The position numbers and the translations under genes were made by a program. From positions 1-40,948 of the forward strand of contig JAJZPI010000012.1 of NCBI GenBank assembly GCA_021811275.1: 40,948 nucleotides of DNA, written 5' to 3'. The DNA is from Deltaproteobacteria bacterium (GTDB lineage Bacteria; Desulfobacterota; Desulfarculia; Desulfarculales; Desulfarculaceae). The notes beneath the pieces are model-generated. The model searched no databases. It had not been told where the DNA came from and worked only from the letters and a program-made list of their open reading frames with translations. Shown in pieces: positions 14,010 to 17,179 of the stretch (positions are counted from its first letter, which is position 1; each line of letters opens with the position of its first letter).

Positions 14010-15350
14010 CTATAAAACCCTGGCCACGAGCAGCGGCCCGGCGGAGGTTTCCTCGACCGCCAAGGACTCGATCTCCACCAGGCTGCCCGCGGGCAAGCGG
14101 CGGTCCAGGCGGGCCAGGCAATAGTTGCCCGTGCGGGCCAGGCCCTCGCCCTCCACCACGGCTAAATCCTGACGGCCGATTTGGGCCTGGTGAAAGGCCA
14201 GGCGCTTGGCCTGGCCCAGGGCGCGCAGCTCCGCCGCCCGGGCGCGGGCCAGAGGACCGGGCACCCGGCCCGCCATGGCCGCCGCCGGGGTGCCGGGCCG
14301 GGGCGAGTAGGGGAAGACGTGCAGGTAGGCCAAGGGCAGGGAGGAGATTAGCGCGCGGGTGTCGGCAAAGTCGGCCTCGGACTCGCCGGGCAGGCCCACC
14401 ATTACGTCCGCGCCCAGGCATAGGCCGGGCAGGGCCCGGGCCGCGGCCTCCAGGCGTTGAGCATACTGGGCGCGGGTGTAGGGCCGGCCCATCCCGGTGA
14501 GCAGACGGTCGCTGCCGGTTTGCAGAGGCACGTGGAGGTGGGGGCAGAGCCGGGGCTGGCCGGCCATGAGCGCCAGCAGGTGGTCGCTCACCTCGCTCAC
14601 CTCCAGGGAGGAGAGCCTTAAGCGCGGGCCGGGGTGGGTGGCCAGCAGAGAGGCGAGCAGATCGGTCAGGCCCAGCGGCGGGGTAAGGTCCCCGCCCCAC
14701 CGGCCCAGGTGCACGCCGGTGAGCACCACCTCGGCCGCCCCGGCCTGGCCCAACAGCAGCCAGGCGGACGCCGCCTCGGCCAGGGGCAGGCTGCGGGGCC
14801 GGCCGCGCACCGCGGGGACGATGCAGTAGGCGCAGCCGGCGTCGCAGCCGTCCTGGACCTTCAAGAGGCCCCGGGTGCGTCCCTGGCCGGCCAAGCGCGC
14901 GCCGGGGCATATGGGGCCGGCGTCGGGCGCGGCCAAGGGGCCGGTCTGAGAGGGACCCTGGCCACCGCCGGCCAGCAGATCGGCCAGGCCCGCGAGGTCC
15001 GCCCGGCCCGCGACCCGGGCCCCTTCCTTGCGGTAGGCTTGGGGTGCCGCCTGGGCGTCGCAGCCGCTGACCACCACCCTGGCCTCGGGGTGGGCCTTGA
15101 TGAGCCGGCGGGCCATCTGGCGCGATTGGCGGCCGGCGGTGGCGGTGACCGTGCAGGTCATGAGCAGCGCCACCTCGGGGGCCTCGCCTTCGGCGGCCTC
15201 GCGCCAGCCCCGGGCCATGAGTTCGGCGGCCAGCGAAGCGGCTTCGGCCTGGTTTACCTTGCAGCCCAGGCAGGCCAGGACGAAGCGGGGGGCCTGGCCG
15301 CAATCGGGGCTCAAGCCATCAGCTTGAGCGCCGATTGCGGTGCGGGCCAT
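14010..15350 (-). CDS. mtaB: tRNA t6A37 methylthiotransferase, MiaB-like radical SAM enzyme
   Basis: A MtaB-type methylthiotransferase of about 446 residues that adds a methylthio group to t6A37 of tRNA. The N-terminal UPF0004 domain holds three cluster cysteines (LACLGCKVNQ, MTCTVTA, SGCDAQ). The radical SAM motif is VQDGCDAGCAYC. A C-terminal TRAM-like region ends the protein. I place the start at ATG 15350. A TTG at 15410, in frame, would add 20 residues. An SD-like GGAG with an ATG at 15397 is out of frame by one base because of a run of seven G. A strong stem-loop covers codons 4-17. The gene follows the aminotransferase closely and probably shares its attenuated transcript. Confidence 0.9.
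   Translation of the reverse strand: MARTAIGAQADGLSPDCGQAPRFVLACLGCKVNQAEAASLAAELMARGWREAAEGEAPEVALLMTCTVTATAGRQSRQMARRLIKAHPEARVVVSGCDAQAAPQAYRKEGARVAGRADLAGLADLLAGGGQGPSQTGPLAAPDAGPICPGARLAGQGRTRGLLKVQDGCDAGCAYCIVPAVRGRPRSLPLAEAASAWLLLGQAGAAEVVLTGVHLGRWGGDLTPPLGLTDLLASLLATHPGPRLRLSSLEVSEVSDHLLALMAGQPRLCPHLHVPLQTGSDRLLTGMGRPYTRAQYAQRLEAAARALPGLCLGADVMVGLPGESEADFADTRALISSLPLAYLHVFPYSPRPGTPAAAMAGRVPGPLARARAAELRALGQAKRLAFHQAQIGRQDLAVVEGEGLARTGNYCLARLDRRLPAGSLVEIESLAVEETSAGPLLVARVL
15298..15340. repeat. 43-base near-perfect palindrome at the 5' end of mtaB
   Basis: CCGCAATCGG (15298-15307) pairs with CCGATTGCGG (15331-15340), and GCTCAAGC (15309-15316) with GCTTGAGC (15322-15329). The loop is five bases, with one G-G mismatch between the two stem parts. 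It begins eight bases after the mtaB ATG, inside the region an initiating ribosome would cover, so it may lower translation. It could also be an inserted repeat, since these residues have no counterpart in the family. Confidence 0.65.
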
Positions 15351-15414
15351 GGACGGCTTTGCTCGGGCTCTAGGATCAGACGCCCCCCCGCTGTCATTGT
15401 CTCCGGTCAAGGCG

Positions 15415-16593
15415 CTAGAACTTGGCCCGCACCCGCTTGAAGGCCTCGGCCGAGCGGGTGATGGTTTCGTCGGCGCAGCAGAAGGCGATACGGAAGAAGC
15501 CGGGGCCCATGAAGCCCGACCCCGGCACCAGAAGCAGGTTTTCCTTCTGGGCTTCGCGCACGAAGGCCACGTCGTCGGCTATGGGGCTCTGGGGGAATAC
15601 GTAGAAGGCCCCCAGGGGCTTGTTGAAGGCGTATCCCGCCGCCTCCAGCACCGCGCAGATCAGGTCGCGCTTGCGGGCGTACTCGGCCACGTCGGCGGTG
15701 TGCTCCAGCAGTTCGGCCACCGCCCGCTGCATGAGGCCGGGGGCGTTGACGTAGCCCAGGATGCGGTTGGCCAGGGTCATGCCCGCGATCAGCATCCCCT
15801 TGTCATCGATCTCCGGGTGCACCGCGGCATAACCGATGCGCTCGCCGGGCAGGCTCAGGTTCTTGGAGAAGCTCGTCACCACGATGCTGTGGGGATAGGC
15901 CGCGAAGACGCTGGGCACCGTGGCTCCCTCGTAGACGATCTGGCGGTAGGGCTCGTCGCTGATCAGGTAAACCGCCCGTCCCCGCCGCTTGCCGATATCC
16001 GTGAGCGCCTTGGCCAACTCGGCGATCTGCGAGGCGGGGTAGACCGCGCCGCTGGGGTTGTTGGGGTTGTTGATCAGGACGGCGCAGGTATCATGGTCGA
16101 CCGCCTGGGCGATGGCCGCCACGTCCAGGGTGAAATCGGCCTTGGTGGGCACCCGGGTCACGCTGCCGCCGTGGTTGTCCAGGTAGAAGTCGTACTCCAC
16201 GAAGTAGGGCGTGGGCACCACCACCTTGGCCCCAGGGTCGACGATGGCCTTGAGCACGATGTTCAAGGCCCCGGCCGCGCCCACGGTCATGATGATTTCG
16301 TTCTCGCCGAAGGCCACTCCGTGCAGGCGGTTCAGGTGCTCGGCCACCTTGGCGCGCACCGCCGGGTAGCCGGCGTTGGGCATGTAGGCGTGCTGGCCGG
16401 GCGCTTCCTCGGCCACCAGGCGCCGCATGACCTGTTTGAAGGCCGCCGGCGGCTCCAGGTTGGGGTTGCCCAGGGAAAAATCGTAGACGTTTTCGGCGCC
16501 GACTTCGGCCTTGAGTTTGGCCCCGGCCTCGAACATGGCACGGATCCAGCTGGAGCGCTCGATGAAACCGTGGATTTTCTGGGCTACGGGCAT
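15415..16593 (-). CDS. Class I PLP-dependent aminotransferase (AspC/aromatic type)
   Basis: A 392-residue fold-type I aminotransferase. Visible are YDFSLGNPN near the N-terminus, VGAAGALN and PTPYFVEYDFYL contacting the cofactor, NNPNNPSG, SDEPYR, and PLP lysine K244 in TSFSKNLSLPGERIGY. Substrate binding near the end is FFRIAFC with the carboxylate Arg. This subfamily includes aspartate, aromatic and methionine aminotransferases; the exact substrate is unsure. GGAGGAGAGG lies upstream of the ATG. The 5' region holds a terminator and a leader ORF with Phe, Tyr, Tyr and Cys codons, which would fit control by an aromatic amino acid or cysteine. Confidence 0.9.
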   Translation of the reverse strand: MPVAQKIHGFIERSSWIRAMFEAGAKLKAEVGAENVYDFSLGNPNLEPPAAFKQVMRRLVAEEAPGQHAYMPNAGYPAVRAKVAEHLNRLHGVAFGENEIIMTVGAAGALNIVLKAIVDPGAKVVVPTPYFVEYDFYLDNHGGSVTRVPTKADFTLDVAAIAQAVDHDTCAVLINNPNNPSGAVYPASQIAELAKALTDIGKRRGRAVYLISDEPYRQIVYEGATVPSVFAAYPHSIVVTSFSKNLSLPGERIGYAAVHPEIDDKGMLIAGMTLANRILGYVNAPGLMQRAVAELLEHTADVAEYARKRDLICAVLEAAGYAFNKPLGAFYVFPQSPIADDVAFVREAQKENLLLVPGSGFMGPGFFRIAFCCADETITRSAEAFKRVRAKF

Positions 16594-16622
16594 GACACCT
16601 CTCCTCCTGCCTGGGAGCGGAT

Positions 16623-16664
16623 AAAAAAAAGCCGCGGAAGCTTCCCTGAGGGCCTTCCGCGGCT
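16623..16664 (-). terminator. Attenuator-type terminator before the aminotransferase gene
   Basis: On the minus strand AGCCGCGGAAG (16664-16654) pairs with CTTCCGCGGCT (16640-16630), 11 bp, followed by a run of T down to 16623. It lies only 30 bases upstream of the aminotransferase start and 24 bases after a short leader ORF. It could equally be the end of the upstream gene (stop at 16834), but the placement directly before the ribosome site is typical of attenuation. Confidence 0.75.
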
Positions 16665-16687
16665 GGCTCTGCGACCTGATAAGAGCT

Positions 16688-16771
16688 CTAGGGCCGGCGC
16701 AAGGACCTCCCGCGGCAATAATAGCCGCTAAATCGGTCGCGCGCCCGGGCCTTGTCTACTTGAGTCCCCAT
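16688..16771 (-). CDS. Putative 27-residue leader peptide of an attenuator
   Basis: A short ORF from ATG 16771 to TAG 16688 with an Arg-rich sequence containing Phe-Ser-Gly-Tyr-Tyr-Cys near its middle. The codons after Tyr-Tyr (Cys-Arg-Gly-Arg, GCCGCGGGAG) can pair with the 3' arm of the downstream terminator with one G-U pair. The next segment, CCTTGCG followed by CCGGC, can pair in part with the 5' arm of the terminator. This is the arrangement expected of ribosome-stalling attenuation. The ribosome site is weak (TAGGGTG). I did not fold the RNA computationally. Confidence 0.5.
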   Translation of the reverse strand: MGTQVDKARARDRFSGYYCRGRSLRRP

Positions 16772-16833
16772 GACCGCACCCTACCACTTTCCCCCGGAGG
16801 GGTCAAGGGCGGCGGCCGGCCAGGGGCGGCGGC

Positions 16834-17124
16834 CTACTCGTGCAGGATGGCCGGTCCCATCTCCTTGAAAGAGAAGTTGTAGAAGACGTGGTGGCCGTTG
16901 TAGTCCAGCACGCGCAGGTCCTCGTCCTGCTTGAGGTCATCCATGATGACCTGGAAGTGTTGGCCGTAGCGCTTGCGCACCAGTTCCACGTCCAATTCGT
17001 GGGCGATGAACTTGACGATGCCCTTGCGGGCCAGCTTTTCCACGAACTTGGGGTCGGCGAAGGAGCCGTAGGTGGTCAGGATCAAAATGGGACCGGTGCC
17101 GGTGAAAACGATGCCAGCCTTCAT
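16834..17124 (-). CDS. Conserved small cytosolic protein of unknown function
   Basis: A 96-residue protein without a signal peptide or membrane segment. MKAGIVFTGTGPILILTTYG at the N-terminus and VLDYNGHHVFYNFSF near the C-terminus look like a small alpha/beta protein that I have seen only as a conserved unknown in deltaproteobacteria-like genomes; I cannot give a function. The ATG at 17124 is preferred over the upstream one at 17151 because GGAGGCG lies seven bases before it. A sigma-70-like promoter lies at 17180-17209. It stands alone between the HD-GYP gene and the aminotransferase attenuator. Confidence 0.75.
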   Translation of the reverse strand: MKAGIVFTGTGPILILTTYGSFADPKFVEKLARKGIVKFIAHELDVELVRKRYGQHFQVIMDDLKQDEDLRVLDYNGHHVFYNFSFKEMGPAILHE

Positions 17125-17179
17125 GGGGCGCCTCCAGCCGTGGGAATGCATGCCTGTGAGCGGGGTAATCTCTACTTGA

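Follow-up and report, generated by a model that had tools for sequence, protein, structure and literature searches.

Between a promoter-like element and the start of an aminotransferase gene, the window (the whole stretch of 40,948 nucleotides that was analysed) holds a short open reading frame (ORF) and a hairpin followed by a run of T. The question raised by this locus is whether these parts form a switch in which a ribosome on the leader ORF governs transcription of the downstream operon and, if so, which amino acid is sensed. The Escherichia coli trp, pheA and pheST attenuators are generally known to share a leader ORF with control codons for Trp or Phe, competing 1:2, 2:3 and 3:4 pairings, and an intrinsic terminator before the first structural gene (PMC11802643). 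In a 2005 survey, attenuators are given as the control for His, Thr and Phe, and T-boxes as that for Tyr (PMC1262725), and no confirmed Tyr-sensing leader-peptide switch was found in the part of the literature that we covered. Here, we conclude from a comparison of related genomes that the element is very probably a ribosome-mediated transcription attenuator with the logic of the trp leader, tuned to Tyr, in front of an aminotransferase-mtaB operon. The mechanism would be classical, and the Tyr-rich leader at this operon a new example of it.

Results

All features of the locus lie on the minus strand (Table 1). The coordinates that an initial annotation had given for the leader ORF (16771-16688) and the terminator (16664-16623) proved exact on re-reading, and a ribosome site is present between the terminator hairpin and the aminotransferase start at 16593. 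In the computed fold of the region, the terminator stem has 11 bp, and the leader forms a hairpin in which GGCC..GGCGCG.GACC pairs with GGUC..CGCGCC/GGCC. Bulk folding of the leader region is unexceptional compared with shuffles (z -0.87) and hence the evidence for an attenuator is comparative. The hairpin is missing from the list of a simple terminator scanner run on the window because the loop limit of the scanner is 8. The -10 box of the window, TAGGGT, is weak and matches the consensus at 3 of 6 positions. The gene upstream of the element carries a motif that reads DYNGHNVFYNFSF in relatives and DYNGHHVFYNFSF in the window, and most family genomes keep this gene upstream of the element.

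Table 1 Features of the proposed attenuator locus in the window
Feature	Position	Strand	Details
105-aa gene upstream of the element	16834-17151	minus	No significant family match; same strand as leader
Promoter-like element	16778..16806	minus	TTGACC (16806-16801), 17-nt spacer, TAGGGT (16783-16778)
Leader ORF	16688..16771	minus	MGTQVDKARARDRFSGYYCRGRSLRRP; 27 codons plus stop; ATG at 16771, TAG ending at 16688
Segment 1 (putative protector)	16735..16751	minus	GGCCCGGGCGCGCGACC; partner in the computed fold is segment 2
Conserved block	16715..16735	minus	CGA TTT AGC GGC TAT TAT TGC, Arg-Phe-Ser-Gly-Tyr-Tyr-Cys
Putative control codons	16723-16718	minus	TAT TAT, inside the conserved block of the leader ORF
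Segment 2 (predicted antiterminator half)	16691..16707	minus	GGTCCTTGCGCCGGCCC; 3' end at leader stop codon; partner is the 5' arm
Segment 3 (terminator 5' arm)	16653..16664	minus	AGCCGCGGAAGG; from fold and cross-genome alignment
Segment 4 (3' arm) with T-run	16623..16640	minus	CTTCCGCGGC; from sequence, fold and 3:4 pairing counts
Terminator hairpin	16664-16623	minus	AGCCGCGGAAG-GCCCTCAGGGAAG-CTTCCGCGGCT plus eight T; about 30 bases 5' of the aminotransferase ATG (16593)
PLP-dependent aminotransferase, 392 aa, first gene under the proposed control	15415..16593	minus	PRK06836 family (NF005305), 555.7 bits, cut-off 376
MiaB-like methylthiotransferase, second gene	14010..15410	minus	Best match MtaB (TIGR01579), 312 bits, under the cut-off of 357

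The initial annotation had proposed comparing the upstream regions of orthologous aminotransferase genes for a conserved short ORF with Tyr/Phe/Cys codons, and a short ORF with aromatic codons is indeed kept in 15 genomes. A search of 60 relatives gave an aminotransferase match in all 60, for some a paralog alone. Within the family set (f1, 20 genomes), 16 genomes yielded an ortholog, with an identity of 61 to 81%; with the window's own genome this makes 17, and the leader ORF precedes the ortholog in 15 of these 17, the window counted. The block common to the 15 leaders opens with Arg (or Gly)-Phe-x-x and continues with two to four Tyr, at times mixed with Phe, as in MHREFRFIRYYYYPGNGFAEAC, MGARRFTSYYYWYLPQGSARTP and MTLAGRRFLGFYYCPAARVRRP. 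An intrinsic-terminator hairpin lies 3' of the leader in every leader-bearing genome (15/15), with a poor T-run in two of them (L002 and L003, from G002 and G003), and a TTGACC-N17-TAnnnT-like promoter is found at the same place, upstream of the leader, in 16 family genomes. In most genomes the leader stop codon coincides with the 3' end of segment 2, and in two it comes shortly before that segment. A strict nucleotide motif, CGATTTANNNNNTATTAT, occurs in 12 of the 20 family genomes, at most once per genome, and 11 of the 12 matches stand before the aminotransferase gene. The twelfth, in G011, falls inside an unrelated coding sequence and was dropped as an attenuator candidate. The heptanucleotide CGATTTA (16735-16729 in the window) is conserved in the window and its relatives beyond what the codons need; the Arg codon is CGA in 14 of 15 leaders, though it is rare in the window genes, and TTT is found in 15 of 15.

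Two of the orthologs have no leader. G007 (L015) retains the promoter and the hairpin with its T-run but has no leader ORF upstream of the aminotransferase, which looks like a natural loss, and the ortholog of G011 has neither leader peptide nor promoter and hairpin. No leader of this type was found before 77 more distant homologs (contig loci and L018), so the candidate attenuator is, within the genomes searched, restricted to one bacterial family; L043, which has the leader, is a family member. Likewise, a search of 395 genomes of the phylum with the strict motif gave four family matches and a single match by chance, in f15, where no leader ORF accompanies it.

Pairing was counted in a hand alignment of ten arm positions in 15 genomes (150 cells), with single bulges skipped. 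The 2:3 antiterminator pairing is formed in 139 of 150 cells with 15 two-sided changes, and none of 5000 whole-row shuffles, which ignore relatedness between genomes, matches either figure. For the 3:4 terminator pairing the counts are 136 of 150 cells and 13 two-sided changes, and hence both of the alternative stems covary, the pattern that the initial annotation had asked to see. At arm positions 9-10 of L002, L003 and L013, the pairing with the leader is full and that with the terminator 3' arm is incomplete, so these changes are evidence specific to the antiterminator. In L002 and L003, moreover, the leader:arm antiterminator is better paired at arm positions 7-10 than the terminator stem. 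Cognate 2:3 duplexes have a mean of -20.75 kcal/mol compared with -17.94 kcal/mol for non-cognate duplexes (permutation p 5e-5, relatedness not removed), and cognate 1:2 duplexes are also stronger than non-cognate ones, less clearly than for 2:3 (permutation p 0.003, relatedness not removed).

These counts bear unequally on the two competing pairings that had been drawn by hand for the window. The pairing of CCTTGCG and CCGGC with the terminator 5' arm is conserved and covaries across the 15 genomes. The other, between the codons after Tyr-Tyr (GCCGCGGGAG) and the terminator 3' arm, was not seen in relatives, and we rejected it as part of the mechanism. The predicted protector of segment 2 is instead the upstream segment at 16751-16735, just 5' of the Phe/Tyr codons.

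Simulated ribosome positions were evaluated by downstream-only folding, in which just the RNA that has emerged 3' of the ribosome is folded and sequestration of the 5' arm by the leader is scored. A ribosome placed on the first codon of the aromatic run gives a family mean of 0.78, and one placed on the stop codon gives 0.28; for the window, the values are 0.79 (first Tyr/Phe codon of the run) and 0.02 (stop). If upstream RNA may fold as well and leader partners only are counted, the means are 0.56 at the first run codon and 0.06 at the stop, with L004, L005 and L016 staying at or below 0.24 and the window (L001) responding at the first Tyr codon alone (0.48). If any upstream partner is counted, the contrast shrinks to about 0.7 versus 0.56. 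Hence, the size of the switch in simulation depends on the treatment of upstream RNA and of pairing partners. Non-cognate arms gave nearly the same contrast as cognate arms, with no discrimination between them, so the simulation indicates that the geometry fits and does not speak for co-evolution. The stalled-ribosome logic first put forward for this leader thus survives in outline, given that a ribosome at the Tyr codons leaves the antiterminator free in simulation and one at the stop codon hides it, but with a protector other than GCCGCGGGAG.

Judging from the composition of the leaders, Tyr, possibly with Phe, is the most likely signal, and Cys is not. Tyr codons in the leader blocks are 40 TAT and 7 TAC, compared with 21 and 73 in the window genes (Fisher 6e-13), and Phe codons are 16 TTT and 7 TTC, compared with 13 and 108 (Fisher 1e-8), so it is the less-used codons that stand at the control positions. 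Tyr or Cys had been suggested as the charged-tRNA signal, and the runs of Tyr common to the leaders agree with the former. A cysteine-sensing leader is hardly credible: a Cys codon follows Tyr-Tyr in 2 of 15 leaders, those of the window and L004, but the other 13 have Pro, Phe, Leu, Trp, Arg or more Tyr there. Sensing of Phe, or of Phe and Tyr together, rather than of Tyr alone has more in its favor and is still quite improbable. A TTT codon for Phe stands a few residues 5' of the aromatic run in all 15 leaders, preceded by Arg in 14, segment 2 is likewise freed in most genomes when the simulated ribosome stalls at this constant codon, and the AroR leader of Corynebacterium glutamicum, with its Phe-Tyr-Phe, answers to Phe and not to Tyr (PMC11802643). 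However, runs of two to four Tyr dominate the leaders and one Phe alone is constant, and a Phe/Tyr mixture is carried by a separate aroF leader of the same genomes.

The start of the leader in the window species differs from that in its relatives. The leader ATG lies 6 nt 3' of the -10 box, compared with 23 to 34 nt in relatives, no good ribosome site was found at this ATG (16771), and where its nearest relatives have their start codon, the alignment places AAG in the window (16753), 18 nt downstream of the ATG in use. Because of this short distance, and because the ancestral start now seems to be AAG, initiation at 16771 is uncertain, and the window leader would either be read from a leaderless transcript or be decaying. 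An element that functions in relatives and decays here, its leader start codon and ribosome site lost, has these three features in its favor, but we consider it unlikely. The reading frame, the Tyr codons, the position of the stop and all pairings are intact, the 5' arm and the leader have compensating changes in common at arm positions 8-10 that are specific to the window, and a transcript that begins at the ATG could be translated as a leaderless mRNA. Function is therefore favored over decay, and we infer a working switch in the window species. Another explanation, that the hairpin is the ordinary terminator of the upstream 105-aa gene, with the short ORF and the pairings due to chance, is very improbable. 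That gene, on the same strand and with its end at 16834, is kept upstream by most relatives, and bulk folding does not set the region apart from shuffles; yet a conserved promoter separates the gene from the hairpin, conservation and covariation are seen for the leader ORF, aromatic codons and antiterminator pairing, and L009, without the upstream DYNGHNV motif of the 105-aa gene, retains the full attenuator.

Discussion

The leader-peptide attenuator first proposed from the window alone is supported by a leader ORF, aromatic codons, promoter, terminator and covarying antiterminator in 15 genomes, together with folding at simulated ribosome positions. The locus has the marks of a trp-leader-type element, namely a putative leader ORF with repeated control codons, a terminator before the first gene, 2:3 and 1:2 pairings, and folding that depends on ribosome position. 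In the proposed mechanism, transcription would start at the conserved promoter and a ribosome would translate the leader ORF behind RNA polymerase. With charged tRNA-Tyr plentiful, the ribosome would reach the stop codon and cover segment 2, segment 3 would pair with segment 4 and transcription would terminate. With charged tRNA-Tyr scarce, the ribosome would stall at the Tyr codons and cover part of segment 1; segment 2 would then be free to pair with segment 3, no terminator would form, and the aminotransferase and mtaB would be transcribed.

Compared with E. coli trp, pheA and pheST, the element differs in its Tyr-rich leader and in its target, a PRK06836 aminotransferase with mtaB. The AroR leader before aroF in C. 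glutamicum is likewise aromatic and precedes an aromatic-pathway gene, but it belongs to another gene in an unrelated lineage and answers to Phe limitation, with no response to Tyr reported (PMC11802643). Tyr T-box riboswitches likewise sense charging of tRNA-Tyr and control a terminator (PMC1262725), but bind the tRNA directly without translation, whereas the element described here is proposed to signal via a translated peptide. Rfam models at gathering scores, the T-box model included, gave no match over the window and a T-box identity was rejected; Pfam and NCBIfam gave no match on the leader peptides. Another lineage-restricted upstream ORF with tandem control codons, likewise found by comparative genomics, is uORFC-8-2 before cysS in Rhodobacterales (PMC8632094), although it has Cys codons and belongs to another gene and another class. 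The part of the literature covered on Tyr-codon attenuators, or on attenuators of Desulfovibrio and Desulfobacterota, contained nothing pertinent and the element is unreported there. If true, Tyr sensing by a leader peptide would close a gap, because the sources list Tyr under T-boxes and His, Thr, Phe and Trp under leader-peptide attenuators.

Control by Tyr would also give a putative function to a PRK06836-family aminotransferase with no assigned substrate. The closest solved structure, 3ele, has its molecule labelled just 'Amino Transferase', and a Tyr-controlled enzyme would probably be aromatic, which leads us to infer an aromatic (tyrosine-forming) transaminase. In every family locus that extends to the second gene, the CKVNQAE motif of mtaB is found 3' of the aminotransferase, so mtaB would be co-controlled with the aminotransferase, but there is no sign that the control exists for the sake of mtaB.

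The window's own genome has, at L132:611-721 (G000:C198), a Phe/Tyr-rich leader, ANYFYFSFYYFTTVC / MEMGRASGVMNPGANYFYFSFYYFTTVCPVAREVQG, and a terminator before its DAHP synthase gene (aroF), which is followed by the prephenate dehydratase gene (pheA). With this aroF-pheA leader and, in several relatives, candidate Trp leaders after tyrA, the Tyr leader looks like one of an aromatic set, and a transaminase under Tyr control would suit the final step of the aromatic pathway. This suggests that attenuation may be the main means by which the family controls its supply of aromatic amino acids. The broadest reading is a tentative one that we hold to be possible but rather doubtful: that the attenuator truly answers to charging of tRNA-Tyr, is one of an aromatic set (with Phe/Tyr leaders at aroF-pheA, Trp leaders near tyrA and the Tyr leader at the transaminase) and ties a tRNA methylthiotransferase to tyrosine supply, with the window leader read from a leaderless transcript. 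Leaders similar to that before aroF in the window's own genome are seen at L126, L127, L129, L133, L134, L135 and L140. Trp-rich leader ORF candidates 3' of tyrA are seen at L153 (MFATCWRYWWWYEDRSGPPALAR), L155, L156, L158, L159, L160, L161 and L168, with two candidates in tandem in L159 and L161.
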